A stretch of 42,077 nt of DNA from assembly GCA_902768105.1 (NCBI GenBank), contig CACXJZ010000022.1, positions 1 through 42,077 on the forward strand, given 5' to 3'. The DNA comes from an uncultured Prevotellaceae bacterium. GTDB taxonomy: Bacteria > Bacteroidota > Bacteroidia > Bacteroidales > Bacteroidaceae. The first letter of the stretch is position 1. Each line of letters begins with the position of its first letter. Under the pieces are notes generated by a model, which was not told where the DNA came from, did no database searches, and saw only the letters and a list, made by a program, of their open reading frames with translations. Both the position numbers and the translations under genes were made by a program. This document shows positions 9,770 to 41,004 of this stretch, piece by piece.

Positions 9770-10398
9770 GCGTCACCTCCTTTCTGAAGTGAAGAGTGAA
9801 GAGTGGAGAGTGAAGAATAAGCAGCTACTAATTCTTCGTATACCTCGGGAGTAGCCTCAAAGTTACCATAGCGGATGCGAAGGAAGTGGTTGGTCATGCG
9901 AAGGAAGGCCTCTTCCGTATATTCATAGGTGTATTGCGTGGGGGTCTTGTGCAACTGCCAGTCAATGCGTCCGTCTTCCGTAAGTAGCTTCAGCGTCTGC
10001 AGGTATTTCAGTCTCACGGCCTCACGGAAATCATGACGGCCGAGAGCCTCGGCAATACACTTTTCGAAGTCAATGTCATAAATATTATCGTCCTCAATCT
10101 CATACTCCATATCCCGCTGTCTCGTCTTCCCGAAGAGTCCCGGGCGGAACTTGTAAAGCAGCCAGCCGATGACGCCCAACAGCAGCAGGAGTCCTACCGT
10201 GATGAACACCCACGACACATCGTTGCGCATGACGGAGTTTATGACCTCGCTCAACAACCCCATAATGACCTCAAATATCCATTGCAAAATATTCTGCTGC
10301 GGTTCGATGAGCTCACGGTTATAGTCGAACGCAGAGTCTTGCTGCCATGCAGCAATGCGAGCAGTATCACAAACCAGCGTATCGACAGGGAAATTCAT
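9766..10398 (-). CDS. DUF4129 domain protein with repeat-derived tail
   Basis: The 210-residue protein has a short exported N-terminus, a membrane helix near residues 63-82 (WVFITVGLLLLLGVIGWLLY), and a cytoplasmic DUF4129 domain with DFREAVRLKYLQTLKLL near residue 123 and an RIRYGNF segment. DUF4129 proteins occur in MoxR/DUF58 clusters, but the biochemical role is unknown. The last residues, including SSLSTLHSSLQ, are encoded by four copies of a seven-base repeat (9788-9815), so the tail is probably recent and dispensable. It overlaps DUF4350 by four bases. Confidence 0.8.
   Translation of the reverse strand: MNFPVDTLVCDTARIAAWQQDSAFDYNRELIEPQQNILQWIFEVIMGLLSEVINSVMRNDVSWVFITVGLLLLLGVIGWLLYKFRPGLFGKTRQRDMEYEIEDDNIYDIDFEKCIAEALGRHDFREAVRLKYLQTLKLLTEDGRIDWQLHKTPTQYTYEYTEEAFLRMTNHFLRIRYGNFEATPEVYEELVAAYSSLSTLHSSLQKGGDA
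9788..9815. repeat. Seven-base tandem repeat (AGTGAAG)x4
   Basis: Four units: AGTGAAG, AGTGAAG, AGTGGAG, AGTGAAG. This is the reverse complement of the CTTCACT unit found at 17494-17521. It lies within the last codons of the DUF4129 gene. Because seven is not a multiple of three, gain or loss of one unit would change the protein's end and its overlap with DUF4350. Confidence 0.9.
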
Positions 10399-17474: not shown

Positions 17475-17493
17475 TTATAAGCGGCAGCAAATT

Positions 17494-17521
17494 CTTCACT
17501 CTTCACTCTTCACTCTTCACT
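17494..17521. repeat. Seven-base tandem repeat (CTTCACT)x4
   Basis: Four perfect CTTCACT units lie immediately upstream of the mdh promoter -7 box. The -33 position (about 17507-17510) is inside the array. The unit is the complement of that at 9788-9815. Confidence 0.92.
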
Positions 17522-19144: not shown

Positions 19145-19747
19145 ATGAAGCGTTTATCATATAGCATTTATCATTTAGCATTTAGCGCAGCATTGGTATG
19201 CGTCGTGCTGACATCGTGCCTGAACGGTGACGACGACAACTCACAGCAGGGCATGAGCAAGCAGCAGATTCATGAGTGCTATCTGCACATGGCCGGTGGA
19301 CACAGCGGAAAGATGTACTTCGAGAAGAAAGATGAAGAAACCAATTTGGTAAAGAGCGACTCCATCGATATATCGTGGACGGTGGTTAACGACTCTATCA
19401 TTACCATCCACGACGTGCCGGCACGCGTGTTAGGAAGCATGGTAGAAAACGAGAATCTGAAAGCAGCCATTGAAACTGCCGGTAATGTGGAAATCAAGGT
19501 ATTTTACCTGCCCTACCTCATATCTCCCATTAGCTTCGAGCTCTACCCACAGCCTGTTAAAGCTAACATCTTCTATGCCGATGCCACGCACTCTGTGACC
19601 TTCGGATTCTATTTTAACGACTATAGCTGGGGCAAACAGGAAGACAATAAGATGAAACTGCAGCTGGTACAGTACGGCGTCTATCTGGATGACAGCAACT
19701 ACCCGTATCTGAGCTCACAAATACCATTGATGTTGCAGGAAAAATAA
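19145..19747 (+). CDS. Small lipoprotein, DUF4840-like
   Basis: The 200-residue protein has a lipoprotein signal ending in CVVLTSCLNGDDD, with the lipobox cysteine near residue 25 and an acidic +2 region. The mature part has a mixed beta pattern (SGKMYFEKKDEETN, SDSIDISWTVVND). It resembles the DUF4840 family of Bacteroidetes lipoproteins; that match is from memory and only moderately sure. The signal's n- and h-regions are encoded by a heptamer array (19152-19186). It is followed by a strong terminator. Confidence 0.6.
   Translation: MKRLSYSIYHLAFSAALVCVVLTSCLNGDDDNSQQGMSKQQIHECYLHMAGGHSGKMYFEKKDEETNLVKSDSIDISWTVVNDSIITIHDVPARVLGSMVENENLKAAIETAGNVEIKVFYLPYLISPISFELYPQPVKANIFYADATHSVTFGFYFNDYSWGKQEDNKMKLQLVQYGVYLDDSNYPYLSSQIPLMLQEK
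19152..19186. repeat. Seven-base tandem repeat in a signal peptide (ATTTAKC x5)
   Basis: Units GTTTATC, ATATAGC, ATTTATC, ATTTAGC, ATTTAGC. They encode residues RLSYSIYHLAFS of the lipoprotein signal. In three frames a heptamer yields a seven-residue period, and here it supplies hydrophobic and small residues. Confidence 0.85.
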
Positions 19748-26268: not shown

Positions 26269-28086
26269 ATGATCAAGCAAAGCGTTATTTTATTTTTTTA
26301 CCTTTTTACCTTTTTACCTTTAACAGCATTAGCTGCCCCCGCCTGGCCGTTCCCCTTCCAGGTCAAACAGCCTGACGGCACCATGCTTACCATCCAGCTA
26401 CATGGTGACGAGCACTTCAACTGGATCAGCACAGCCACTGACGACGTGCTGCTCGTCAGCAAGGGCAACGCCTACTACGTGGCTGAGGTCAACGACGATG
26501 GAACGCTGACAGCCACCGCGCTGCTGGCACACGACGCCTTGCAGCGCACAGCCGATGAGCTGACCGCCATTGAGCGTCAGACTCCTCGCCGTGTCCAGTT
26601 TGTGAGGCAGGGTGACAAGCACATCACCTTGGCCCGTCGTGCTCCTCAGGTCACCAATACGAAATATTTTCCACACACGGGTACACCCCGCGTGCTGGTT
26701 ATCCTGGCAGCCTATGCCGATTTCTCTTTTACGCTGGAAGACCCCATAGCATCTTTCGACCAATGCCTGAACGGCACCAGTCCCATGCAGAACTTGGGTC
26801 ATGGAGAGAATCGTGTCAACTGCAGCGTAGCCGAGTACTTTACCACTGTCAGCCGCAAGGACTATATACCGCAGTTCGACATTGTAGGCCCCGTCACATT
26901 GCCCGAGGACATGGCCGTCTATGGCAATGACAATAACCTGACCAAACTATGCAAGGACGCTTGCCAGCAGCTAATAGCCAACCAGCCGGACTTCGACTTC
27001 ACCCCCTACGACAACGACGGTGACGGCAGTGTGGATATGGTCTATATAGTCCATGCAGGCTATGGTGAGAACATGGGTGGTCCTAAGGAAACCATGTGGG
27101 CACGATGCGGCACCATCAACGTCGAAATCACCAGCAACGTCAAGGTGGCCATCAGCGGCTGCCACAGCGAACTGGCATTCAACGAAGCAACTACAGAGAA
27201 GAGCTTTGGAGGCATTCCACAAATCAACGGAACGGGCGTGCTTATCCATGAGTTCTCGCACGGCATGGGACTACCTGACATCTACTCCACCACATCTGCC
27301 GCACAGCAAACGAGCAACCAGTCCATGCAGCGGTTCGACGTGATGGACGTGGGCTGCTACGGCGGCAACAGCTGGGAACCAGCGGCCTATACCGCATGGG
27401 AACAGGAGGCAATGGGCTGGCTCACCATTGTCCCGCTTGATGAAGCACGGACCGGTATCAGCCTCACACCCATCATCGAAGGCGGTACGGCCTACAAGAT
27501 TCAGAACCCAGACAAGGAGAACGAGTACATCGTACTGGAGAACATCCAGAAGAGAGGCATCAACAAAAGTTCCTACGGTCATGGGCTGTTGGCTTACCAC
27601 ATTGACTATCCCTACTCAACCGTCAACATGAACGATGCGCCCAACAACATCATCGGACACCCCCGCGTAGCTGCCATACCGTCAGGAGGCCTGCTCATCT
27701 CAAGCTACCAGGCCAATAGTGAAGGCCCCTACACGCAAGAAGAGTTTAAAGCCTCGAACGCTGCAACACCCTTCCCGGGAACAAAGGACGTCACCACCCT
27801 CACCGATGATCAGGAGCTTCCCAACTTCTGCTTCTACTCCGGCGAAGACGCAAACAATCCTGAGGTAAACCCTGTTGGCCACGCGCTCTACAATATTCAG
27901 GAAGCTGCTGACGGCATCGTCACCTTCGACTACGATGACAACAGTGCGACAGGCATCAGCCCCGTCCTCAACCTTCCACACTCCACCCTCGACCATTACT
28001 ACACGCTGGACGGCCATCGCCTCAATGGTGTTCCCACCCAGCCTGGAGTATATATCAATAACGGTCGGAAGGTCATCATCAAGTAA
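26269..28086 (+). CDS. Secreted M6-family metalloprotease
   Basis: The 605-residue protein starts MIKQSVILFFYLFTFLPLTA with signal cleavage near ALAAP. A propeptide has VKQPDGTMLTIQLHGDEHFN. The zinc site HEFSHGMGLPD sits near residue 328, the metzincin HExxHxxGxxD with catalytic Glu. The C-terminal tail DGHRLNGV...GVYINNGRKVIIK resembles those at 14491 and 30297. It probably acts outside the cell on peptides or host proteins. The hydrophobic core of the signal comes from an octamer repeat shared with gldN. Confidence 0.9.
   Translation: MIKQSVILFFYLFTFLPLTALAAPAWPFPFQVKQPDGTMLTIQLHGDEHFNWISTATDDVLLVSKGNAYYVAEVNDDGTLTATALLAHDALQRTADELTAIERQTPRRVQFVRQGDKHITLARRAPQVTNTKYFPHTGTPRVLVILAAYADFSFTLEDPIASFDQCLNGTSPMQNLGHGENRVNCSVAEYFTTVSRKDYIPQFDIVGPVTLPEDMAVYGNDNNLTKLCKDACQQLIANQPDFDFTPYDNDGDGSVDMVYIVHAGYGENMGGPKETMWARCGTINVEITSNVKVAISGCHSELAFNEATTEKSFGGIPQINGTGVLIHEFSHGMGLPDIYSTTSAAQQTSNQSMQRFDVMDVGCYGGNSWEPAAYTAWEQEAMGWLTIVPLDEARTGISLTPIIEGGTAYKIQNPDKENEYIVLENIQKRGINKSSYGHGLLAYHIDYPYSTVNMNDAPNNIIGHPRVAAIPSGGLLISSYQANSEGPYTQEEFKASNAATPFPGTKDVTTLTDDQELPNFCFYSGEDANNPEVNPVGHALYNIQEAADGIVTFDYDDNSATGISPVLNLPHSTLDHYYTLDGHRLNGVPTQPGVYINNGRKVIIK
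26295..26318. repeat. Eight-base repeat in the M6 protease signal peptide (TTTTTACC x3)
   Basis: Three perfect TTTTTACC units followed by a partial one. They encode FFYLFTFLP, the same core as in GldN (36994-37025, complement AAAAGGTA). Confidence 0.92.
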
Positions 28087-28107
28087 AAAAGCGACCCTTC
28101 AATGTAT

Positions 28108-28142
28108 AAAACGCCACTTCTTTTAGCAGAAGTGGCGTTTTT
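28108..28142. terminator. Terminator after the M6 protease, also ends the minus-strand candidate RNA
   Basis: Stem ACGCCACTTCT (28111-28121) with AGAAGTGGCGT (28128-28138), a six-base loop, AAA/TTT extension, and T run on plus. The minus strand also reads TTTTAT after the hairpin, so it can work both ways. Confidence 0.92.
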
Positions 28143-28160
28143 GTGATGGAAAGACGCCGA

Positions 28161-28226
28161 GTTGAAGGGACGAAGAGCGCCAGTTACAGGGATAAAGAAC
28201 GGCTGTCGTAGGGACGAACTGCCGTT
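28161..28226. repeat. Three adjacent 22-base units in the intergenic region
   Basis: Units start at 28161, 28183 and 28205. Shared core: GTT or GTC, two to three bases, AGGGA(C/T)(G/A)AA. They are imperfect, without spacers, and lie inside the candidate RNA. The preceding 22 bases look like a weaker fourth copy. Confidence 0.6.
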
Positions 28227-28349
28227 CTTTTCGGGTAAAGGGCGTACGTGTCTTATATGAGACACGCCCGTGTCCCATATAGGACGCGGACGCGGAACCC
28301 CTATACCCTATACTACCTTTCAAACACAAGCTTTTCGCTTACTTTTCTG

Positions 28350-28380
28350 CAAAGTTACAACAATTCCTTGAAATATGCAA
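28350..28380 (-). promoter_or_regulatory. Promoter inside the M6/pectate lyase intergenic space
   Basis: Minus strand TTGC (28377-28380), 19 bases, TAACTTTG (28350-28357). It lies beyond the pectate lyase stop (28397) and points to no gene except the intergenic stretch, which supports the candidate RNA. Confidence 0.6.
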
Positions 28381-28396
28381 GTTTTTAGTAAAGATA

Positions 28397-30280
28397 TTAT
28401 TGGCTCTGTGAATTCTCGTCTCCGAAGAAACCTACGAGAGATGAGGAATATGCAGCCAACACAGCGTCAAGTCCGGCATTACGACCATAATCAGCGTCAT
28501 CAGTAGCATTGTTGAAGACGTACTGGATGTCACCATGATTCAGACGCCCTGCACCGTAGTAGCCCGTCACAATATCAGGCACATCGCCAGTAGCATCAAC
28601 GACACCACTATGCATCCGCTGCGGGTCCGTATCGAAATTGTTGTAAGTCGTATTTCCTGCCAAGGTAACAACGGTTTCAGGCACAACCTCGTCACGAGCA
28701 GTTGCTTCGTAAGCATCAAAACTGGTTGAATTAACCTGATAGGTAATGAAGCTGAAGCTCTTAGGTTTCTCTACAAAGACGTTTCCAAACGATTTGATGA
28801 TACCGCCGTTCTCTCCGCTGAAAGTACCATCACCCGTAGCATCCGTTCCTTGCTTAGATGACATCATCGGACGGAACGTTCCACGAAAATAGTTGTTTTC
28901 GACAAAGATACTTGAACCCATCGTGGCACCTACGCCGTACTTACCATTCCCGTCAAAATAGTTATTATAGATATGGACGGTCGATGTGCGTACACGGGGA
29001 TGACGGGAATCAGAGTGGTCGAACCAATTGTGGTGATAAGAAATCAGGTTGTCTGTCGTTTCTTTCTTCATGCCACAAAGTATTGACTTGCCGGAATCCC
29101 AGAAGTGATTATACGAGAACGTGGCAAACGAGCAGTTATCCTTGCAGTCCAGTGAGCCGTCACCCTTGTCATGGTCACCTCCACCTTTTGCACCATAGAA
29201 ATAATCACAGTGATGAACCCAAACATGCTGTGTACCCTTTATTTCCATATTATCATCGCTGCTACCCTGGTAGAATACTGCCATATTACGGATTTCCACA
29301 TCACATCCACTCACAACTCCGATACCAAAGCCTTTGAACACGACATCATCACCTATACCCTCAATGGTTACAGCTAAGTCTATTGTGGTATTGTTGGCTT
29401 TCAGCAACAAGCCATCCTGGTCGGTCCGGCGTTGGGCAGCATCTGCGTCTGAAGATGTTATCATGCCTAAAATACGGACAGCCAACGGCTTCGTGTCATA
29501 TCCTTTCTGCTTGGCAATCAAGATATTTCCGAGGCCTGTACATGTTTCTGTCTTTCCCTTTTTGTCTGTCACCATATCAAGCGTGATGGTATTAAAGTTG
29601 TTCTTCGTGACATAGAGGACAACAGCTCCGTCTTTTAGTGTGCCGTCATCTTTATAGGCGCCAACACCTTTCGTCCAATTCATGTGTGCAAAACCTCCAC
29701 GGTCATAATTTTTCACAGTCAATGCCGTCACCTCGTTGGCAGCGTCAGCCATTTCCATCCCGTCAGGATTGACAGGCACAATCTTTAAACAGTACTCGCC
29801 AGCCTTCAGACCAACTACGTCAGCACGGCCGTACGAGCCGTAGTTACGCACGAGTTCACGGTCGATCTTGGTGTAGTCAGCATAATGACAACCCTTTACA
29901 TATACATTATAGGATGTGGCACCACTGAAGAGGGCGAACTTCACGTAGGCAGACTCCAACCACCCCTTGGACTCATTGATATGCACCTTACCCTGAGTAT
30001 TGTTATAGTTTCCTTCAGCACCCTCATCAACGGGCGTGCCCTTGGTGAAGCTGATATCCGTCACCATCTTGGCAAAGGTATAACTACTGGTTCCCTGAAC
30101 AATCTTCACGTTCGTACCGTCAACGTCAATGCTACTCAAGCTTTCCGTATCGTAATAACGCTTGCTGCCGTCGCTCAGCGTCAGCACGGCCTGATTCTTT
30201 ACCGAACTTTGAGCCTTGACGCCAGTGCTCATGCCGAGCATCATAGTCACAAGGGCGAAAAGATATATGTTTATTTTCAT
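28397..30280 (-). CDS. Secreted pectate lyase (PL1 family)
   Basis: The 627-residue protein has a signal peptide ending near VKAQ and a small N-terminal beta domain (DGSKRYYDTESLSSIDVDG). A fibronectin-like region lies at about 100-195, and the right-handed parallel beta-helix runs to the end. Calcium-site acids lie in HCDYFYGAKGGGDHDKGDG and the substrate arginine is in SDSRHPRVRTS near residue 430. It cleaves polygalacturonate by beta-elimination. It trails a 117-residue gene by 16 bases. The tail lacks the GVYI motif. Confidence 0.92.
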   Translation of the reverse strand: MKINIYLFALVTMMLGMSTGVKAQSSVKNQAVLTLSDGSKRYYDTESLSSIDVDGTNVKIVQGTSSYTFAKMVTDISFTKGTPVDEGAEGNYNNTQGKVHINESKGWLESAYVKFALFSGATSYNVYVKGCHYADYTKIDRELVRNYGSYGRADVVGLKAGEYCLKIVPVNPDGMEMADAANEVTALTVKNYDRGGFAHMNWTKGVGAYKDDGTLKDGAVVLYVTKNNFNTITLDMVTDKKGKTETCTGLGNILIAKQKGYDTKPLAVRILGMITSSDADAAQRRTDQDGLLLKANNTTIDLAVTIEGIGDDVVFKGFGIGVVSGCDVEIRNMAVFYQGSSDDNMEIKGTQHVWVHHCDYFYGAKGGGDHDKGDGSLDCKDNCSFATFSYNHFWDSGKSILCGMKKETTDNLISYHHNWFDHSDSRHPRVRTSTVHIYNNYFDGNGKYGVGATMGSSIFVENNYFRGTFRPMMSSKQGTDATGDGTFSGENGGIIKSFGNVFVEKPKSFSFITYQVNSTSFDAYEATARDEVVPETVVTLAGNTTYNNFDTDPQRMHSGVVDATGDVPDIVTGYYGAGRLNHGDIQYVFNNATDDADYGRNAGLDAVLAAYSSSLVGFFGDENSQSQ

Positions 30281-30296
30281 TGTTCCGTCCTCCTTT

Positions 30297-30650
30297 TCAC
30301 TTTACAGTGACTTTCTTGCCGCTTTGGATATATACTCCAGCAGGGAGACTCTGCAGATTGTCACCCATATACTGGCCACGAAGGTTATAGACCTTTGCAT
30401 CCTTCACAGTTTCCACGCCCAAGTGCTCAATAGCGGTAGAAAGGTTGAAGGCTATCTTCACCTCCACAGCAATATCCTGCGTCTCCGTACTGTTGTCAGT
30501 AAAATGCAGGATGACATTGTCACCGTCGAACGTAATTTGCTTCACGGTCTTATCGACAATTGCCCCACCGATGGTTACCGTCTGCACGTCGTCTGCCATC
30601 GCACAAAGGCTCATCAACAGGCACGTCAATACGAGTAAATGTCTTTTCAT
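30297..30650 (-). CDS. Mini secreted protein: signal, small beta domain and sorting-like tail
   Basis: The 117-residue product has a signal peptide (MKRHLLVLTCLLMSLCAMA). Next is a small beta domain (GAIVDKTVKQITFDGDNVIL) resembling the start of the pectate lyase. The end is KVYNLRGQ...LPAGVYIQSGKKVTVK, a type IX-like terminus with hardly anything between. It may be a leftover from a larger exported protein or a natural small factor. It is upstream of and probably co-transcribed with the pectate lyase. Confidence 0.65.
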   Translation of the reverse strand: MKRHLLVLTCLLMSLCAMADDVQTVTIGGAIVDKTVKQITFDGDNVILHFTDNSTETQDIAVEVKIAFNLSTAIEHLGVETVKDAKVYNLRGQYMGDNLQSLPAGVYIQSGKKVTVK

Positions 30651-30689
30651 TGTTTGTTTTGATTTGATTAGTATTTAAATATCTGGCTG

Positions 30690-30697
30690 CAAAAGTA
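30690..30697 (-). promoter_or_regulatory. -7 box upstream of the mini protein/pectate lyase pair
   Basis: TACTTTTG on the minus strand, 40 bases before the ATG at 30650. Upstream is AT-rich (TATATATATAA), without an obvious TTTG at 19-20 bases. Confidence 0.6.
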
Positions 30698-30760
30698 AGC
30701 ATTATTTATATATATAAAAGGTAATGAAAAGCATTTTTACGACGTAAACGATTACAGCAA

Positions 30761-30802
30761 AACTTGCGCACTTTGCACGTTTTGTGCAGAAATGCGCAAG
30801 TT
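30761..30802 (+). promoter_or_regulatory. Large palindrome in a divergent intergenic region
   Basis: AACTTGCGCA (30761-30770) pairs with TGCGCAAGTT (30793-30802), and TGCAC (30774-30778) pairs with GTGCA (30784-30788). A run of six T begins at 30801, so on the plus strand it has terminator shape. Yet both flanking genes are transcribed away from it. It is either an operator or the end of an unannotated short transcript. Confidence 0.55.
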
Positions 30803-30860
30803 TTTTCTTAATAAGTGTTAATATTATACGCACACATTCGTTCATTTTGTGCAATAGCTA

Positions 30861-30868
30861 TACCTTTG
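30861..30868 (+). promoter_or_regulatory. -7 box of the FadL-like gene
   Basis: TACCTTTG on the plus strand, 34 bases before the ATG at 30903. No strong -33 element is seen (ATTCG near the expected site). Confidence 0.62.
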
Positions 30869-30902
30869 CAGCCGTTTTAAGTAAAAATTAATTAAAATAA
30901 CG

Positions 30903-32438
30903 ATGAAAAAGAGTTTTTTATCTATTGTTGTTTTCATGATGACAGCGGTGAGCGCCTTTGCAGGCGGCATCCTCACCAACACCAATCAAAGTGTTTTATT
31001 CCTGAAGAACCCAGCACGCGATGCAGCTATCGGTCTTGACGGTGTGTATTCGAATCCCGCAGGTGTGGTATTCATGCCCGAGGGTTTTCATCTGGCCTTC
31101 AACTGGCAATATGCCCACCAGACGCGTACCATCACCTCTACCAATCCGCTCTTTGCACTTGGCAAAAAGAACAACGGACTGACGACAAAGGTGTTTGAGG
31201 GCATTGCCGACGCACCGTTCATCCCTTCGGTACAGGCTGCATATAATAAAGGAAACTGGAGCTTCCAGTTCAACTTCTCAATTCCCGGCGGAGGCGGTGT
31301 CTGCGAGTTTGAAAACGGCCTCGGCTCATTCGAGAACGCTGTCGGCAGCATTGCCTACCTGCTCCAGCAGCGCGGACTACCCGTCGAGGGTTACGACGTC
31401 GATGCCTATATGCGCGGCCGTCAGTATTTCTTCGGTTTCCAGCTCGGTGCTGCCTATAAGATTGACGAGCATTGGGCGGTATATGGCGGTCTGCGTGCCC
31501 TCTACGGTAACGCCTCCTATCGTGCCCGCTTGAGCAATATTCAGGTAAAGCTGAAGAATCAGCAGGCTGGTGAGTCATACTACGTCAACTTCGACCGCTT
31601 CATCAACGGAGCCATTGCTGACATCAATAAGCAGATTGGTCAAGCTGAGCTAGCCACACAAATGGGAGCCATGACTCCTGAGGAACTGGCTGCCGCACAG
31701 GCTCGTGCCGAGGAAGCGCTCGTGCCCCTGGAGATGCTGCAAAAGTACGGACAGGGTGTAAACTTGATGAGCAATCAGGAGGGGTTTGGCGTAGCTCCGG
31801 TGATTGGCATCGACTTCAAGATTGCCAACTTCAACTTTGCTGCCAAATATGAGTTCAACACTCAGATGAAAATGAAGAACCACTCCACACTGGAAAAGGC
31901 CCTGAAGATTGAGGGTGACTATGCCAACTTCCCCGGCATCAGCAACATCAACAAATACGAGAACGATACTGACGTAGATGAGGACGCACCCGCACTGCTC
32001 GCCATCGGTGCACAGTGGAGCGTGATTCCCGAGCTGCGTCTGAACCTGGGCTATCACCACTACTACGATAAGAACGCCCACTGGTACAACGACTCGCAAA
32101 AGCTGCTCGACAGTGGCTCGAACGAGTACCTGGGTGGTGTTGAGTGGGACGTGACCGACCGCGTAAACATTTCCTGCGGTGCGCAGATCACCCGTTACGG
32201 CCTGACCGATGCCTACATGAACGACCTTTCGTTTGTGGTCAACAGCTACAGTGCAGGCTTCGGTGTCAGCTACAAGGCTACCGATAAGATTACGCTGACT
32301 GCTGCTTACTTCCAGACAAACTACGACGACTACGACAAGGTGACACAGGCGCACCCGCAGACGGGCGATGTCATCTCTGGCGATTCATTCACCCGTACCA
32401 ACCGCGTGCTCGGTCTGGGTGTACAGGTTGATTTCTAA
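30903..32438 (+). CDS. FadL/OmpP1-family outer-membrane transporter
   Basis: The 511-residue barrel has a signal peptide (MKKSFLSIVVFMMTAVSAFA). Its mature N-terminus with NTNQSVLFLKNPARDAAIGLDGVYSNPAGV is the family's plug-like hatch. A series of beta-strands ends in a C-terminal phenylalanine after VLGLGVQVDF. FadL proteins pass long-chain fatty acids or other hydrophobic compounds. A helical insert between residues 240 and 285 (LAAAQARAEEALVPLEML) stands out. Convergent with priA, with three bases between stop codons. Confidence 0.86.
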   Translation: MKKSFLSIVVFMMTAVSAFAGGILTNTNQSVLFLKNPARDAAIGLDGVYSNPAGVVFMPEGFHLAFNWQYAHQTRTITSTNPLFALGKKNNGLTTKVFEGIADAPFIPSVQAAYNKGNWSFQFNFSIPGGGGVCEFENGLGSFENAVGSIAYLLQQRGLPVEGYDVDAYMRGRQYFFGFQLGAAYKIDEHWAVYGGLRALYGNASYRARLSNIQVKLKNQQAGESYYVNFDRFINGAIADINKQIGQAELATQMGAMTPEELAAAQARAEEALVPLEMLQKYGQGVNLMSNQEGFGVAPVIGIDFKIANFNFAAKYEFNTQMKMKNHSTLEKALKIEGDYANFPGISNINKYENDTDVDEDAPALLAIGAQWSVIPELRLNLGYHHYYDKNAHWYNDSQKLLDSGSNEYLGGVEWDVTDRVNISCGAQITRYGLTDAYMNDLSFVVNSYSAGFGVSYKATDKITLTAAYFQTNYDDYDKVTQAHPQTGDVISGDSFTRTNRVLGLGVQVDF

Positions 32439-32441
32439 AAA

Positions 32442-34466
32442 TTACAGGGGATCTACGTCGTAATAGACCATAAGCGACGCATAACGCTTGTCCGTGAGCA
32501 TCTGACTCTGAGCCATGAGCAGATACTCACGGACTTTTTTCATGTCAATGCCGTTTTCTAACTTCAGCACTACCTTACGGATATGCTGCTGGCGAACCAT
32601 CGCGACAGAAGGTTTGTCGGGACCTAACACACGGTCACCAAACCACTGGCGCAGACGTGAGCCGAGTTCGATGGCTGCCGTGTTCACAAGAGAATCGTCC
32701 TTATGACGCAGATAGACAGCAACAAGGCGGTAGAAGGGTGGATAGCGGAAGGCACGGCGCTCACTCAACAACTCCTGAAAGAAAGTCTCGAAGTCGTTGC
32801 GCACCACCTGACCAATGAGTGGTAGGTTAGCTTGGCGTGTCTGCAGGATAACCAGTCCACGTTTGCCTTTACGACCGGCACGTCCACTGACCTGTGCCAT
32901 CATCATGTAGGCATGCTCGTAGGCCCTGAAGTCAGGATAGTTCAGCATAGTATCAGCATTCAAGATACCCACCACGCTGACACGATCGAAGTCAAGTCCC
33001 TTACTCACCATCTGCGTACCGATGAGGATATTCGTCCTACCCGTCGAAAAATCGTTGATGATGCGCTCGTAGGCATTACGCGTACGGGTAGTGTCAAGGT
33101 CCATGCGTGCCACACGGGCTTCGGGGAAGATGTCACGCACGGCGTCTTCAATCTTCTCCGTGCCGTAGCCCCGCGACCGCAACTCCTTCGAGCCACAGCT
33201 GGGACATTCCGTGGGAATTCGATATACGGCTCCACAATAATGACATGTCAACTGGTTCATACTACGGTGCAGCGTCAGCGAAACGTCACAATGCTGACAA
33301 TGGGGTACCCACCCACACTGCCGACATTCCACCATAGGAGCGAAGCCTCGGCGGTTCTGGAACAGGATAACCTGCTCGTCACGCCCCAGTGCCTCGCGCA
33401 TCCGCGCCAGCAGCAATGGCGAGAACGGACCACTCATCAGCTTACGATGCTGCAGGTCCTTCACATCAACCACCTTCACTTCAGGCAGCTCAATGCCTTG
33501 GTAGCGTTCTGTCAGTGTCACCAGTCCGTACTTCCCCACCTGCGCATTGTAATAACTCTCGGCACATGGCGTGGCGGTACCCAACAATACCTTAGGACGA
33601 GACATCCGCCCTTCACCATTTGCAAGCGAAGCGAGCATGATAGCTACATTCCGTGCATGGTAGCGGGGCATAGGGTCCTGTTGCTTGTAGCTGGTCTCGT
33701 GCTCCTCATCGACAATAACGAGTCCCAAACGCTGGAATGGCAGGAATACCGACGACCGCACACCAAGAATGACGTCATAAGGATTCTGCGACAGTTGCTT
33801 CTGCCAAATCTCCACACGTTCCGCATCGGAATACTTCGAGTGGTAGATACCCAAGCGATTGCCGAACACCCGTCGCAGGCGATCCATTGTCTGTACCGTC
33901 AACGCAATCTCAGGCAACAGATAGAGCACCTGTTCCTTACGGTCGAGCGCCTGCTGGATGAGGTGTATGTAAAGTTCGGTCTTGCCGCTTGACGTTACGC
34001 CATGCAGCAAGACCACATTCTTCTTCAGAAATTGGAATTGTATCTGATTATAGGCATCTTGCTGGGCAGCATTCAACGTCTTGATGTTCTCGGGCTGTGG
34101 TTCCAGTCCAAGGGGCAAACGAGGTTTCCTCTTCTTTTCCTCTTCCTTTTTCAGTCCGCTGGGCAGCGCTGCCTTCATCACCATGCCGATGGGCGACATG
34201 TAGTAGTCAGCTATCCATTGCCACAACTTCAGCTGACTGGGCAACAGCACAGGACTCTCGTCAACAACATCAAGCACCTCCTTCACCTCGTAGCCCTGCG
34301 GCTGCTCGTCATGCTGACGGGCCACAATACCCACGTAGCTCTTCGAGCGACCGAAAGGCACGAGCACGCGAATGCCCACCTGCATCCTCGGCTCATAGGC
34401 GGCCGACACGGTGTAGGTGAACATCCCCTCAAGGGGCACAGGCAGAATAACGTCAACGTAGCTCAT
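32442..34466 (-). CDS. priA: Primosomal replication helicase PriA, apparently without the winged-helix domain
   Basis: The 674-residue helicase begins MSYVDVILPVPLEGMFTYTV (3' DNA-binding domain). It then passes from ALPSGLKKEEEKKRKP almost directly to LNAAQQDAYNQIQ, where PriA usually carries a winged helix of about 80-120 residues. Walker A is HGVTSSGKTE and Walker B is VDEEHE. Eight zinc cysteines lie in CRQCGW...CQHC and CHYC...CPSC. Motifs GTQMVSKGLDFD and QVSGRAGRKGKRG follow. It restarts collapsed replication forks. The start at 34466 fits a nearly leaderless transcript. Confidence 0.93.
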   Translation of the reverse strand: MSYVDVILPVPLEGMFTYTVSAAYEPRMQVGIRVLVPFGRSKSYVGIVARQHDEQPQGYEVKEVLDVVDESPVLLPSQLKLWQWIADYYMSPIGMVMKAALPSGLKKEEEKKRKPRLPLGLEPQPENIKTLNAAQQDAYNQIQFQFLKKNVVLLHGVTSSGKTELYIHLIQQALDRKEQVLYLLPEIALTVQTMDRLRRVFGNRLGIYHSKYSDAERVEIWQKQLSQNPYDVILGVRSSVFLPFQRLGLVIVDEEHETSYKQQDPMPRYHARNVAIMLASLANGEGRMSRPKVLLGTATPCAESYYNAQVGKYGLVTLTERYQGIELPEVKVVDVKDLQHRKLMSGPFSPLLLARMREALGRDEQVILFQNRRGFAPMVECRQCGWVPHCQHCDVSLTLHRSMNQLTCHYCGAVYRIPTECPSCGSKELRSRGYGTEKIEDAVRDIFPEARVARMDLDTTRTRNAYERIINDFSTGRTNILIGTQMVSKGLDFDRVSVVGILNADTMLNYPDFRAYEHAYMMMAQVSGRAGRKGKRGLVILQTRQANLPLIGQVVRNDFETFFQELLSERRAFRYPPFYRLVAVYLRHKDDSLVNTAAIELGSRLRQWFGDRVLGPDKPSVAMVRQQHIRKVVLKLENGIDMKKVREYLLMAQSQMLTDKRYASLMVYYDVDPL

Positions 34467-34473
34467 GCAGCCA

Positions 34474-34505
34474 CAAAGGTACAAAAAAAAATAAAGCAAG
34501 CGAAA
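34474..34505 (-). promoter_or_regulatory. priA promoter inside a terminator, near-leaderless
   Basis: TACCTTTG (34474-34481), 19-base spacer, and a TTTCG-like -33 at 34501-34505 that lies in the hairpin loop. The predicted start is only about 1-3 bases before the ATG at 34464-34466. Confidence 0.62.
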
Positions 34506-34522
34506 CACTTGCTTTATTTTTT
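34483..34522 (-). terminator. Terminator of the outer-membrane protein gene, merged with the priA promoter
   Basis: ATAAAGCAAG pairs with CTTGCTTTAT, extended by A/T pairs to about 15, with a seven-base loop (34501-34507). On the minus strand a run of T follows. It ends the gene at 34540-35157. Confidence 0.9.
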
Positions 34523-34539
34523 ATGGATTATCTTTCTTT

Positions 34540-35157
34540 TTAGAGCGGAATCTTATAGCCAACGGTCAGCATGATGACGCTGTTCTTGCAGTCACCATTA
34601 TCAAAGACCTTGGTCAAACCGAGGTTATAACGTGCATCAATTACAAAGTCATCGAACTCGTAAGACAGGCCAAGGGGAATAGAGAGGTCAAATTTCTTGA
34701 ACCCCTCGCTATCGGTATTCTCAACATCTCCAGCAGTTGTTTTAGCCTTTATCTTCTGAGAAATCAGGAATCCCGGTTGAACACCAGCCTTGATAGCCAG
34801 ACCAGGAACTATATAGTAATTTGCCAAAACAGGTACGTTAAGGTATGTCATGTTTATCGAAGGTTCTTTTACTCCTAACGTACCAAAAGGACCAAAATCG
34901 ATTATACCCTGGTCATCTGACTTAGTGCCCTGCATTGAAGCCAACAAACCAGCTGTTACGGCAAACTGATCTGACACCTGATAGCCAAATTCAGCACCAC
35001 CCACAAAACCAAATGTCATTTTTGCATCGTCTATCTTTGTCAGTGTTGTAAGTGTACCACCAACCATGGGCTTGATAAACATTGAACCTGCTTCACTCTG
35101 TGCATTGGCAGTGAAAGCGAATGCTGCAAATACAATTGCTAATAATGTCTTTTTCAT
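34540..35157 (-). CDS. Small outer-membrane beta-barrel protein
   Basis: The 205-residue protein has a signal peptide (MKKTLLAIVFAAFAFTANAQ) and about eight amphipathic beta-strands. Periodic turns such as YQVSDQFAVTAGL and IVPGLAIKAGVQPGF match PorT/OMP_b-brl-type barrels. The end is MLTVGYKIPL. No ligand can be inferred. A second in-frame ATG two codons upstream is possible. It has its own promoter and terminator, so it is a single-gene unit. Confidence 0.8.
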   Translation of the reverse strand: MKKTLLAIVFAAFAFTANAQSEAGSMFIKPMVGGTLTTLTKIDDAKMTFGFVGGAEFGYQVSDQFAVTAGLLASMQGTKSDDQGIIDFGPFGTLGVKEPSINMTYLNVPVLANYYIVPGLAIKAGVQPGFLISQKIKAKTTAGDVENTDSEGFKKFDLSIPLGLSYEFDDFVIDARYNLGLTKVFDNGDCKNSVIMLTVGYKIPL

Positions 35158-35206
35158 AATCATTTACTTTTAAATAATTAATAATTTTGTTTGTTTAATA
35201 CGAGGA

Positions 35207-35238
35207 CAAAGGTAAGCAAAATTTATAAACTCTCCAAA
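35207..35238 (-). promoter_or_regulatory. Promoter for the small outer-membrane barrel gene
   Basis: Minus strand TTTG (35235-35238), 20 bases, TACCTTTG (35207-35214). An excellent match, with a leader of about 45-50 bases. Confidence 0.8.
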
Positions 35239-35247
35239 TATTTATGC

Positions 35248-35275
35248 AAAAAAAACGCAAAACATTCGTTTTGCG
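35248..35275 (-). terminator. Terminator after the second barrel gene
   Basis: CGCAAAAC (35256-35263) pairs with GTTTTGCG (35268-35275), four-base loop. Read on the minus strand it is followed by eight T. It separates the two barrel genes. Confidence 0.9.
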
Positions 35276-35319
35276 CCTTTTGCTTTATCTAAATATCTCT
35301 TTACTTCTTCCTTTGCTCC

Positions 35320-35913
35320 TTAGAAGTAATAAGCTGCCGAAATCTGCCATGCATTGTTTCTGGTGTCGTACTCGTCCCTGACATTGTTCCACGAGAATTC
35401 ACCCGTCTTGCCAAGGGCAATGTTGTAGTTAAAGCCTATTTCCAGATGACTCAACATGGTTACACCGGCACCCAGATTGATACTGAAGTTGGTTTTCTTC
35501 AACTGGTAATTCTCAGTGTTGAGGAGTTTGAAGTTCTCGTCACCCACGTTAATGCCGAACTGCGGACCAGCAGCCAGGTAGAGACCTGCAGCATCGCCCA
35601 GTCCGAAAGTGTAACGGGCATTGATAGGAATGTTGATACTCTTCTGGTCGATGGTAACGCCCTCCAGCTTTGCCTCACGCTGGTCATAAAGAGCAGCCAC
35701 GTCAACTCCCAGTCCTACGATGGGAAGGGTAAACTTAACGGTTGGGCCAATGAAGAAGCCCGCACGATTGGAACTGTTCAACACATCAGAAGACAGTGAC
35801 ATGTTGGTAACATTGAAACCGCCCTTGATACCGAAACTGGTTTGGGCCTGCGACGGTGTTGCAACCAATAGCAATGCAGCAACACTCAAAACGGTAAAAA
35901 TCTTTTTCATCAT
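35320..35913 (-). CDS. Small outer-membrane beta-barrel protein (PorT-type fold)
   Basis: The 197-residue product has a signal peptide (MMKKIFTVLSVAALLLVATPSQAQ) and alternating beta-strands: SFGIKGGFNVTNMSL, AGFFIGPTVKFTLP, GLYLAAGPQFGINVG. The last strand is WQISAAYYF with the terminal aromatic expected for BAM. I see no promoter just upstream. It may follow gldN on one transcript, 72 bases away, making it a candidate accessory of the secretion locus. Confidence 0.8.
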   Translation of the reverse strand: MMKKIFTVLSVAALLLVATPSQAQTSFGIKGGFNVTNMSLSSDVLNSSNRAGFFIGPTVKFTLPIVGLGVDVAALYDQREAKLEGVTIDQKSINIPINARYTFGLGDAAGLYLAAGPQFGINVGDENFKLLNTENYQLKKTNFSINLGAGVTMLSHLEIGFNYNIALGKTGEFSWNNVRDEYDTRNNAWQISAAYYF

Positions 35914-35943
35914 CTTTTCCTTCTTTTTTGTTATTTCATTTTC

Positions 35944-35974
35944 GCGTTATAGCGCTATGACGTTGTCATAACGC
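35944..35974. promoter_or_regulatory. Nested palindromes between gldN and the barrel gene
   Basis: GCGTTAT (35944-35950) pairs with ATAACGC (35968-35974). Inside are ATAGCGCTAT (35949-35958), a perfect palindrome, and TATGAC-GTT-GTCATA (35956-35970). The last overlaps the second, so the folds are mutually exclusive. No T run follows. Confidence 0.6.
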
Positions 35975-35985
35975 CAGAACTCTCT

Positions 35986-37074
35986 TTAATGCCTCTGTCT
36001 GCGCACTGAAATCCTCGGCGACGAACCAGTGTTGCCACCCGACGTGGTGCTGCCCGAATTGGTTGACACGCGCTGACGACGGGTCTTCTTCTTTTTCTTC
36101 TTCGACTCCTTCACGGGCTTCACGTCATCAGTATTGGCATCAGTGGAATCTACGCTAGCGGTGTCGTTACGTAGCGTCGTGGCAAACAGCCCGCGCTCGA
36201 AGGCCACCAACTCCTGCTCTATGCGCTCCTGCTCCTTGGCCATCGCAGTGTCCGTCGGACAATATTGTGCCAGCGTGCGACCCAGCATGTTGTTGGTCTT
36301 GTATATCTTTCCGCTATACATGTTCAGCGTGAAGTAGTCACTCATCGACATCGTGGCGGCATTGTTTAGACTGCTCGTCATCACCGTCTGCCGGCTGAGG
36401 AAGGGCTCCAGGTCACTGTACTTCACCCAGAACAGGGGGTACTTGGCAGCCTCTCCGCCGAAGTCGTCCTCGCGCAGCATAACAGGACAAAGAGCCAGCA
36501 CCTTGCGGTGGAACGTTGAGTTCGACTGATCGTAGTAGGCACTCTCTTTCAGGTAGTACAGACGTACCTCCTGCGAGGGGATGTCGCTATTATCCACGCG
36601 TATCTTACCATCCTTCTCCTCGTAGAAGATGTGATAGTCGGACAGCAGCGTCTTGAACTTCACACGGGCGGAGTCGCTGAACACCTCATTACCGTCGAGC
36701 CGATATTCATAGGCGGGCACATATCCGTTCTGCACAAGTTTGAAAACATAGGTAAACAGATTCATGTCGTGACCCACAGGTTCCACAGGATAGTAGAGTC
36801 CGCCATTGGCATCCTTCGTGAGGTCTATCTCACGGTAGATATCACGACGCCACACCACGTCCTCGGGCATGTCAATAGCCGTGGGGAACATCAGACGGGC
36901 ACGCTGCGTCAGCTGCCCCTGCGTATTCTGCGGCGTTGTTGTCGTCGTATTGGCAGGCCTCCTCCTACGGTTGGCGGGCTGTGCCGTACCTGCTAAAGGT
37001 AAAAAGGTAAAAAGGTAAAAAAGTAAGATACCCTTTACCGCTACCTCTTTCCAACATATTTGACTTTTTCTCAT
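35986..37074 (-). CDS. gldN: Type IX secretion protein GldN/PorN
   Basis: The 362-residue periplasmic protein has a signal peptide with core FYLFTFLPLAGTAQ. It contains the GldN segment WRRDIYREIDLTKDANGGLYYPVEP and a long C-terminal charged, low-complexity tail (KKKKKKTRRQR). GldN/PorN forms the ring with GldK/PorK on the periplasmic side of the outer membrane. It is last in the gldK-L-M-N order. The signal core is encoded by a tandem octamer. Confidence 0.92.
   Translation of the reverse strand: MRKSQICWKEVAVKGILLFYLFTFLPLAGTAQPANRRRRPANTTTTTPQNTQGQLTQRARLMFPTAIDMPEDVVWRRDIYREIDLTKDANGGLYYPVEPVGHDMNLFTYVFKLVQNGYVPAYEYRLDGNEVFSDSARVKFKTLLSDYHIFYEEKDGKIRVDNSDIPSQEVRLYYLKESAYYDQSNSTFHRKVLALCPVMLREDDFGGEAAKYPLFWVKYSDLEPFLSRQTVMTSSLNNAATMSMSDYFTLNMYSGKIYKTNNMLGRTLAQYCPTDTAMAKEQERIEQELVAFERGLFATTLRNDTASVDSTDANTDDVKPVKESKKKKKKTRRQRVSTNSGSTTSGGNTGSSPRISVRRQRH
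36994..37025. repeat. Eight-base repeat in the gldN signal peptide (AAAAGGTA x4)
   Basis: Units TAAAGGTA, AAAAGGTA, AAAAGGTA, AAAAAGTA. On the coding strand these are TACCTTTT repeats giving LLFYLFTFLPL. The unit equals that in the M6 protease (26295-26318). Confidence 0.92.
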
Positions 37075-39513: not shown

Positions 39514-41004
39514 TTATTTCCTCTTTGATTTCTTCACCTTAATCTTCTCACTGGTAGTGTTGGCCAGACTGCGCACGCAACGGAAACCGATATACGAACG
39601 CGGCACATTCTGGTACTCGTAGGTACGCCAAGCCGAACGGATGTAGCTGGCGGGGTCTTTCCATGAGCCACCACGCACGCTCTTCTTCTTCAGGCGGTAC
39701 GGGTCTTCCTTCGCGGCATTGTACTTCAGCTGCGGGTTGATGTCGTTCATGGCTGTTACGCCGGCTTCGGTATAAACGGTGCTCGTCCACTCTGCCACGT
39801 TGCCCGCCATGTCGTACAGTCCGTTAGAGTTAGCCTGATAGATACCCGTACGGCTAGTAATGAGATTACCATCCTGCGTATAGTCACCGTTGGCAGGCTT
39901 GAAGTTGGCAAAGAAGCAGCCTTCGCCTGATGCCAGGTCTTCATTGTCCCACGGGAACTCGTTCTGGTCCTTGCCACGTGCGGCATACTCCCACTCAGCC
40001 TCAGTCGGCAGACGGTAACGCTGTACGAAACGGGCCTGCGGGCCCAGACCTTTCAGCAGATACTCCGTGCGCCAGGCACAGAAGGCGTTGGCCTGCTCCC
40101 ACGTCACACCTACCACGGGGTAGTCGTTGTAGGCAGCGTTCGTGAAGTAGTAACGCATGTAGGTCTCGTTCTCAGCATTGGGGAAATCGTTAACCCAGCA
40201 CGTTGTGTCAGGATAGACGTTGACGATGTACGTATTCAGGAAGTCCCACTCACCCGTGTACTGGCGGTTGATGGTCTCACGTACGATGTTGCCCGCGTCG
40301 TCGATGTAGGCGGTGTCCTTCGAAATCCATACCTCCTCGTTGGGATTGGGCACAATGTCGGTATTCAGAACGCGCTCCTCGGGCTTCGCGCGATACTTAC
40401 GCTTAGCAGCCTCCACATAGTCGTACACCTCGTAGCGGTAGTTCAGCTGACGCCAGTCGAGCATCTTCTCGCCCGTCACGGGATTATAGGTATAGAGACT
40501 CTCGAACGCACGCTGCTCGTCCTCGTTCGGCTTGCGCGGAAGTGACTTTTTCCAGTTCAGGTGGGGCTTCACGGGCTCGCCATACTTGTCTTCCTCAATC
40601 TTGTAGGTCTCGTCGCCACCATAGGCAGGATCGGCCAGACGCTCACGCAGGATGGAGTCACGCACATAGTGCACGAACTGACGATACTGCGAGTTGGTCA
40701 CCTCCGTCTCGTCCATCCAGAAACCCTCTACTGAGATGTCGCGCACGGGTGTGTGGCGGCCCCATAGCGAGTCCTGCTCCTCGATACCCATCTTCAGGTG
40801 CCCACGCTTGATGAGCGTCATGCCGTAAGGCGTAGGCTCCGAGAACGGACGTCCACTCACACCAGTCACCTCACCGCCGTTGGCCATCGTCGAACGACTG
40901 CCGAAGCAGCCAGTTAGCAGACAAGCTGCTAAAATGCACAATGCATAATGCACGATGCATAATTGGCTGCGCCAAGTTTTAACTGTTTTATGTTCTTTTA
41001 CCAT
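39514..41004 (-). CDS. gldK: Type IX secretion lipoprotein GldK/PorK
   Basis: The 496-residue lipoprotein has the lipobox LLTGC near residue 33. The fold is that of formylglycine-generating enzymes: FWMDETEVTNSQYRQF, PVVGVTWEQANAFCAWR, RLPTEAEWEYAARG and GNVAEWTSTVY, ending with SYIGFRC. The catalytic cysteines of true FGE are not inferred. GldK is the ring partner of GldN. The signal h-region (LCIVHYALCIL) comes from a seven-base array. Confidence 0.95.
   Translation of the reverse strand: MVKEHKTVKTWRSQLCIVHYALCILAACLLTGCFGSRSTMANGGEVTGVSGRPFSEPTPYGMTLIKRGHLKMGIEEQDSLWGRHTPVRDISVEGFWMDETEVTNSQYRQFVHYVRDSILRERLADPAYGGDETYKIEEDKYGEPVKPHLNWKKSLPRKPNEDEQRAFESLYTYNPVTGEKMLDWRQLNYRYEVYDYVEAAKRKYRAKPEERVLNTDIVPNPNEEVWISKDTAYIDDAGNIVRETINRQYTGEWDFLNTYIVNVYPDTTCWVNDFPNAENETYMRYYFTNAAYNDYPVVGVTWEQANAFCAWRTEYLLKGLGPQARFVQRYRLPTEAEWEYAARGKDQNEFPWDNEDLASGEGCFFANFKPANGDYTQDGNLITSRTGIYQANSNGLYDMAGNVAEWTSTVYTEAGVTAMNDINPQLKYNAAKEDPYRLKKKSVRGGSWKDPASYIRSAWRTYEYQNVPRSYIGFRCVRSLANTTSEKIKVKKSKRK
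40934..40961. repeat. Seven-base repeat in the gldK signal peptide (ATGCAYR x4)
   Basis: Units ATGCACA, ATGCATA, ATGCACG, ATGCATA. They encode LCIVHYALCI on the minus strand, which forms the core of the lipoprotein signal. Confidence 0.9.

Follow-up and report, generated by a model that had tools for sequence, protein, structure and literature searches.

Short tandem DNA repeats write the hydrophobic cores of signal peptides (SPs) in several lineages, and they do so with different repeat units. We describe these arrays starting from a window of 42,077 nt, by which we mean the whole stretch of DNA analysed, on contig CACXJZ010000022.1 of an uncultured Prevotellaceae bacterium (GCA_902768105.1; genome size 2.7 Mb), where the same octamer codes for the SP core of both an M6-family peptidase and GldN. 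Our preferred explanation, to which we assign a probability of about two in three, is that SP cores are permissive DNA occupied by genus-wide microsatellites, perhaps with contributions from template switching between inverted repeats and from recombination of cassettes. Signal peptides change fast, and to our knowledge little has been established about where new ones come from. Orthologues of the conserved GldN bear cores from different repeats, through which the origin and turnover of export signals become testable, and identical signal cores in unrelated proteins need not imply common protein ancestry. Overall, these observations suggest that, in a gut-type Prevotella and some of its relatives, repeat DNA of a common kind serves again and again as export signals.

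Octamer arrays in the window and the genome

The peptidase gene occupies positions 26269-28086 of the forward strand (Pfam Peptidase_M6, PF05547, E 7e-14). Its ATG at 26269 is separated by a single base from the end of the preceding open reading frame (ORF), and the predicted SP (MIKQSVILFFYLFTFLPLTALA, with a cleavage site judged by eye) extends from 26269 to 26334. The gldN gene lies on the reverse strand at 35986-37074, with its start at 37074 (Pfam GldN, PF19841, E 8e-58); its predicted SP covers 36982-37074, and the ORF begins with the sequence MRKSQICWKEVAVKGILLFYLFTFLPLAGTA. In the first of these SPs, 3.4 copies of TTTTTACC with 100% matches (26295-26321, forward strand) code for FYLFTFLP, and in the second, 4.0 copies with 95% matches (36995-37026, coding strand reverse) code for FYLFTFLPL. 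The initial annotation of this DNA had stated that the two proteins have the core FYLFTFLPL in common, that a tandem octamer produces it and that they are otherwise dissimilar. All of this is borne out by the two arrays and by the Pfam assignments, in which the peptidase and GldN have no family in common.

Three 8-bp units make up eight codons (TTT TTA CCT TTT TAC CTT TTT ACC) without a stop, and the cyclic octapeptide read from this sequence, F-L-P-F-Y-L-F-T, is the same whichever frame enters the array. Since eight is not divisible by three and the T-rich strand contains no stop, every frame gives the same cyclic hydrophobic peptide, so that an array entered in any phase yields identical cores in unrelated proteins. 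The opposite strand, GGTAAAAA, meets a TAA within three units, and therefore only the T-rich strand can code at length; most SP arrays are read on their pyrimidine-rich strand, which supplies the hydrophobic core. Written in another phase, TTTTTACC becomes TACCTTTT, which differs by one base from TACCTTTG, a form of the consensus of the Bacteroidetes -7 box.

Genome-wide, the doubled unit TTTTTACCTTTTTACC occurs 23 times in 14 clusters, and its reversed control is absent. Seven of these clusters lie in the SPs of seven different genes, which encode the M6 peptidase, GldN, two OEP/TolC-like proteins, an S41 peptidase, a lipocalin-like lipoprotein and a BamA-like protein with five POTRA domains, whose sequence is cut short where the fetched locus ends. 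All seven arrays are in the same reading phase, and the exit from the array is at FLPL in 6 of 8 octamer-type SPs, counting a degenerate relative at L144:17723-17806. The other seven clusters lie outside SPs, one of them (L018) within the longest ORF call but 5' of the likely start, and in four of the seven a TAnnTTTG box follows within 45 nt. The 16-mer was found in 29 of 100 genomes. Apart from the one studied here, they comprise 26 of the 59 other genomes of the genus and 2 of 40 from other families; the reversed control occurs once each in 3 of the 100. One SP of this genome (L157:15787-15897, the same gene as L017) holds two arrays, an AGGTACG heptamer that codes for the charged n-region and TTTTTACC, which codes for the hydrophobic core.

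Units of 7 and 8 bp shift the reading frame, and their gain or loss could switch an exported protein off, as reported in the consulted part of a study of Neisseria opa, whose CTCTT leader repeats switch at ~1e-3 per cell per generation (PMC3745409). Such phase variation is difficult to reconcile with copy numbers of only ~3-5, or with the finding that the octamer SP genes, seven in all, and the 26 array-bearing GldN SPs described below are in frame, bearing in mind that out-of-frame genes are harder to recognise by the method used. Moreover, the hosts include GldN, a GldK-like protein and the POTRA/BamA-like protein, all poor candidates for switching, and loss of the last should be lethal. As the arrays are found in frame, some of them in genes of this kind, they are probably not a switch, and we regard phase variation as highly improbable.

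Of the M6 loci whose start can be read, that of this genome is the only one with an array. The comparison comprised 29 fetched loci, the best-scoring of a longer list at one per genome, with ~29-45% identity in alignments; the 28 that could be read from their start (all except L099) have other cores and, by eye, no array. On the evidence of these loci, an array-bearing SP as an ancestral trait of M6 peptidases is rejected.

Arrays in signal peptides, other coding DNA and spacers

Array density was compared in an 842-kb sample of this genome, consisting of the window and the initial 20 kb of each of 40 contigs in the range C1-C46 (contigs C2, C5, C7, C11 and C24, which have octamer hits, are absent from it). 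Arrays were defined by a period of 5-16 that is not a multiple of 3 and a Tandem Repeats Finder (TRF) score of at least 40; they typically have 7-8-bp units in ~3-5 copies and are common in the spacers and leaders of this Prevotella. The sample contains 11 arrays in 16.1 kb of SP DNA, 33 in 737 kb of other coding DNA and 78 in 88.9 kb of spacer, corresponding to 6.8, 0.45 and 8.8 per 10 kb respectively. Leaving out the window gives 7, 28 and 77 arrays (4.7, 0.40 and 8.9 per 10 kb), and the difference between 7 arrays in 15.0 kb of SP and 28 in 698.8 kb of other coding DNA has a Fisher p of 7e-6. Among the eleven SP arrays, that of L055 is situated for the most part over and 5' of the start codon, and that of L157 is the AGGTACG array of the n-region. 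Arrays with periods that are multiples of 3 show no SP excess in this genome (1 in SPs and 78 in other coding DNA, over the same 16.1 and 737 kb).

A search through predicted SPs, as proposed in the initial annotation, showed that arrays recur in unrelated SPs: 9 of 222 contain a complete array by themselves, compared with a mean of 0.05 and a maximum of 1 in 100 codon shuffles. The same annotation had noted that an equal rate in random coding DNA would undermine its proposal, and arrays proved to be ~12-fold (without the window) to 15-fold rarer in other coding DNA than in SPs. Its proposal that a repeated DNA unit supplies the hydrophobic segment of export signals stands in one respect, in that a DNA repeat rather than protein homology makes the shared core, while the added idea of an active making or repair of signals is unsupported, the SP rate being near the spacer rate.

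Because these two rates are so close, tolerance of arrays that occur genome-wide suffices to explain the SP enrichment. SP cores would then be the coding place where T-rich arrays survive best, nearly as permissive as spacers, because any frame gives a hydrophobic, stop-free peptide, and an active genus-wide microsatellite process may keep rewriting them. It is also possible that nothing beyond plain tolerance is at work, with T-rich microsatellites arising everywhere and surviving mainly in spacers and SPs, and with the inverted partners described below reflecting a favourite unit and the base bias on each side of the start. The densities of 6.8 and 8.8 per 10 kb agree with this alternative, as does the presence of the octamer in both spacers and SPs; we return to it with the partner tests.

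Beyond those of the M6 peptidase and GldN, two more SPs of the window carry arrays. A 7/14-bp array with the unit AGCATTTATCATAT (19149-19184, forward strand) lies in the SP of a DUF4840 lipoprotein (ORF 19145-19747), and a second 7/14-bp array, reading ATTATGCATCGTGC... on its coding strand (40933-40963, reverse strand), lies in the SP of a GldK-like lipoprotein with an FGE-sulfatase domain (ORF 39514-41004). FGE-sulfatase (GldK-like) proteins of this genome and of another one sampled, G033, have SP arrays of different units. Non-SP coding DNA of the window holds four copies of AGTGAAG (9788-9816) at the 3' end of ORF 9766-10398 (reverse strand).

A non-coding counterpart is the intergenic TCTTCAC array at 17493-17521, between outward-facing TAnnTTTG-type boxes, which adjoins the dispersed core GAATTTGCTGCCGC (17481-17494, reverse strand). 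Counting this window copy and 30 elsewhere, the core GAATTTGCTRYCGC has 31 copies in this genome; it occurs in 28 of 100 genomes including this one, in several of them often as a plus/minus pair ~20-60 nt apart, and the copies read have GTGAAGA or TCTTCAC arrays on their flank. Though dispersed in the genome, the core was not seen inside the SP arrays inspected. It is possibly the anchor of a family of repeats associated with promoters. In this genome 25 of 65 spacer arrays, all units taken together, have a TAnnTTTG box no more than 25 nt away, against a background of 0.10; in other genomes the figures are 4/12, 2/17, 6/30, 3/21 and 2/41, with no excess in the second and last of these.

Turnover of the gldN signal peptide

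The gldN locus was followed across species in 101 loci, which remained of 110 examined after nine had been dropped (two with N, two without a recognised cleavage site and five duplicates); 20 further short GldN regions stand outside the counts, of which 14 gave no alignment and 6, inspected by eye, had no array. At score 40 an array is present in 26 of the 101 SPs, including L223, where it lies at the start codon and n-region and not in the core, and at score 30 in 29, compared with codon-shuffle means of 0.1 (maximum 1) and 0.53 (maximum 3) respectively; 72 or more have no array. L240 passes score 30 through a match of 11 bp that lies outside the core; with this locus removed by hand, 28 remained for the leader test and the tree. 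About ten units are found across the Prevotella orthologues, of the types TTTTTACC, TTCACTA, TTTCTCA, TTCATTC, TCATTTG, TTTATCA, TTTCTTA, TTTATTC, TTTTCAA and TTTTTAA, so the unit varies between species while the mature protein is conserved.

Many other GldN orthologues have an ordinary, MKRVLFLLMITLVAG-like SP, and the nearest relative found (89% identical) also has an ordinary one. By record title the 80 named relatives kept are Prevotella, Prevotellaceae, Bacteroidales, Xylanibacter or Marseilla, and ruminants are the source of many. Most of the relatives read have other cores, and in those with the FYLFTFLPL-type core it comes with the array or a degenerate form of it. Orthologues that keep this core without a DNA repeat, which had been named beforehand as evidence against a repeat origin, were thus not encountered among them.

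Mapped on a tree of mature GldN, the presence of an array requires 20 changes, of which starred branches force at least 13, and unit identity requires 26; because SP types recur, the 20 changes do not amount to 20 independent births. In alignments of five groups of closely related gldN genes, the segment of leader and SP is replaced between two conserved flanks, formed by the end of the gene before it and by mature GldN. Similar SP types also appear on separate branches: L028 has an n-region identity of 0.85 with L175 and with L183, where shuffles reach at most 0.70 and 0.74, but several other same-type pairs are at or near the shuffle maximum. A single clade of L028, L175, L178 and L183, which have the same SP type and were named as a group after the tree had been made, is rejected (approximately unbiased test, p 4e-5). 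GldN leader cassettes seem to have been moved by recombination, or lost repeatedly. As part of our preferred explanation we suggest, because n-regions are alike on distant gldN branches, that leader cassettes may also spread by recombination.

Cassette movement could go further, with recombination or transposition copying a leader-plus-SP cassette from gene to unrelated gene and from species to species, and with the array as no more than one part of it. Consistent with this are the identity of 0.85 across branches that the tree keeps apart, the common FLPL exit of the octamer-type SPs of this genome and the presence of GGGTAAAGGTnTTnCC before the array in OEP, S41 and DUF4831 genes alike. On the other hand, the borders vary from gene to gene, with no constant ends seen (target duplications were not searched for systematically), several other same-type n-region pairs tested stand at or near the shuffle maximum, and the GC-hairpin motif TAGCGGGCTNYGCCCTA is rare, at one or two copies in 6 of 60 genomes. 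Wholesale copying of this kind is thus in our view unlikely. No REP/MITE-like element with many copies and constant ends was found at SP arrays. A mobile element built on a GC hairpin (TAGCGGGCTTCGCCCTA beside A-rich arrays) was rejected as a dispersed family, since it occurs in 3 of 100 genomes, or 6 of 60 in a looser form, at 1-2 copies each. In G033, the starts at L261:14244 and L264:14615, of GldN and a GH5 cellulase, have a common layout of GC hairpin, A-rich array, start, T-rich array and a GC-rich palindrome as c-region.

Inverted partner arrays upstream of the start

The 100 nt before the gldN start often hold an array reverse-complementary to that of the SP. Complementarity of the SP array to its own leader averages 13.5, compared with 7.2 for the leaders of other array loci, a value reached in 0 of 20,000 permutations, in which the favourite unit of a species is not controlled for; the score is at least 12 in 18 of 28 loci. 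When leaders of the same genome serve as the control, 8 of 20 SP arrays have p<0.05 (combined p 1e-4), and 5 of 17 (p 0.008) remain without the three GldN rows used for choosing genomes. With the search region placed upstream of the array, the corresponding figures are 10 of 21 distinct genes (p 6e-5) and, without the chosen rows, 7 of 18 (p 0.003), where L016 and L144 are one gene counted once and L278 of G040 was scored on its leader array and not its core array. For this genome the latter form gives 4 of 13 (p 0.03), three of the 13 having been added for carrying the octamer. All these comparisons rest on one genome per species. Arms are more alike than expected in the GldN set and in the pooled genomes, but not significantly so in this genome alone, nor for the two octamer arrays of the window.

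Spacer arrays have inverted partners above expectation as well, and the pairing thus needs no translation. The fraction with a score of at least 12, relative to that for the flanks of other arrays, is 0.239 vs 0.014 in G045, 0.200 vs 0.033 in G031, 0.053 vs 0.007 in G007, 0.111 vs 0.033 in G033 and 0.130 vs 0.020 in G040. Long inverted array pairs beside -7-type boxes were seen in spacers at L248:17151-17233 and L279:2061-2191. Where arrays lie <60 nt before a start in tandem spacers, the coding strand is the purine-rich one in 14/25 cases in this genome, 4/5 in G031, 8/10 in G007, 14/16 in G033, 8/9 in G040 and 10/11 in G045, a clear majority in five of the six genomes.

Leader and SP arrays might also pair in the mRNA and form a hairpin around the start codon, through which translation would be controlled or coupled to export. 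Within genes the two arms do match, and the fold of leader plus SP, measured against shuffles, has a mean z of -2.09 in array-bearing gldN (n=27) and -0.30 in the others (n=73). The start region is nevertheless open, with a mean unpaired probability of 0.63 vs 0.52 in non-array genes, and a hairpin that hides the start codon is rejected on this ground, the region being more open rather than less. Half or more of the tested SP arrays outside GldN have no partner, untranslated spacers hold inverted pairs too, and at least 72 of the 101 GldN SPs have no array to pair with, all of which makes RNA regulation improbable.

Because a reverse-complement array precedes the same start in many, though not all, cases, hairpin (quasi-palindrome) template switching is suggested as one way in which the arms may be made and kept alike; we put this step forward tentatively, and at less than even odds, on the pattern of the sequences. 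A bolder version would make the start-centred inverted pair a mutational generator of export signals, in which the purine-rich arm becomes the leader (sometimes a lysine-bearing n-region), its complement is written as the hydrophobic core by template switching, any frame works and cassettes move among genes and species. We consider this version rather doubtful.

Several results weigh against our preferred explanation, or against its copying and cassette components, in addition to the recurrence of SP types on the GldN tree and the uncontrolled favourite unit noted above. No template-switch event was itself observed, that step being deduced from patterns. The partner search detected no inverted partner above background for either octamer array of the window, even though the GldN n-region holds GGTAAAGGGT, which by eye resembles the unit inverted, with imperfections. 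The same-genome control is not significant when restricted to this genome (2 of 11, p 0.34), the upstream form gives 2 of 10 (p 0.41) for the ten arrays of the 842-kb sample, and the excess of inverted pairs in spacers is weak (0.040 vs 0.012); the pooled control, moreover, leans on the chosen GldN rows, as its fall from 8/20 to 5/17 indicates. Genes were called by dicodon score and SPs by our own hydrophobicity-plus-cleavage rule, instead of by a standard gene finder and SignalP.

The survey of other genomes adds to these points. An array is present in 3 of 45 SP genes in G033, 2 of 59 in G040, 2 of 54 in G031, 1 of 61 in G007 and 0 of 97 in G045, in 0 of 27 and 0 of 24 in two same-genus genomes (G016 and G024), and, in two genomes of other families sampled at 100 kb each, in 0 of 22 and 1 of 21 predicted SPs; these last four samples are small for a comparison across all Bacteroidales. 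The rates for G031, G007, G033 and G040 are biased, because these genomes were picked for a gldN SP whose array matches the leader well, and several contigs of G031 for their octamer hits. GldN itself is among the SP hits of G033, G040 and G007, and without GldN rows the p values for SP against other coding DNA are 1.0 in G007, 0.013 in G033 and 0.026 in G040; that of G031 is 0.10. Multiple-of-3 arrays occur in SPs above the coding rate in G007 (1), G033 (1) and G040 (2). Finally, G045 has 47 spacer arrays and yet not one SP array.

The last observation speaks against plain tolerance as well, as does the pooled partner test in five genomes, in which the partner is more gene-specific than same-genome leaders also after removal of the GldN rows used for choosing genomes (p 0.008 and 0.003, as above); the non-significant partner test for this genome alone speaks for it. 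Plain tolerance overlaps most of our preferred explanation, denying only a copying step, and on its own we see it as a serious possibility that falls well short of being probable.

Comparison with known repeat systems

Among the matches listed in a search of the open-access literature, no title or abstract opening dealt with repeats in Prevotella signal peptides. Short heptamer direct repeats resembling ours are known from the intergenic TAACTGA heptamers of Beggiatoaceae, Cyanobacteria and some Bacteroidetes, which, in the portions of the report consulted, lie mostly just upstream of start codons in the main genome and for which both the encoded repeating peptide and its stop are given (PMC4679880). 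Unlike the arrays described here, they consist of one fixed heptamer, and the term signal peptide had 0 occurrences in the main text as consulted (PMC4679880).

According to the sections consulted of three reports (PMC8794818, PMC8604942, PMC7202029), quasi-palindrome template switching generates reverse-complement arms that lie close to each other and homogenises them, coding DNA included; the events described there are mutations in RNA genes and in coding genes of yeast. Here, by comparison, it is deduced from patterns only, as a possible source of SP cores.

The closest precedent is that of the Neisseria opa genes, in which, in the part of the source consulted, CTCTT repeats lie in the leader-peptide sequence of exported proteins (PMC3745409), and the statement in the initial annotation that it knew of no named element of this kind needs revision in view of it. 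Both systems place a tandem repeat, with a unit that is not a multiple of 3, inside the coding sequence of a leader peptide, yet phase variation of the opa type is unlikely here. The arrays of this Prevotella and its relatives differ from opa in that they occur in unrelated proteins, comprise many 7-8-bp units at low copy number, are in frame where read and are sometimes preceded by a reverse-complement array. The opa repeats, as far as that source was consulted, represent one gene family and one phase-variable pentamer, whereas the arrays described here are spread over different Pfam families, with about ten units at gldN alone.

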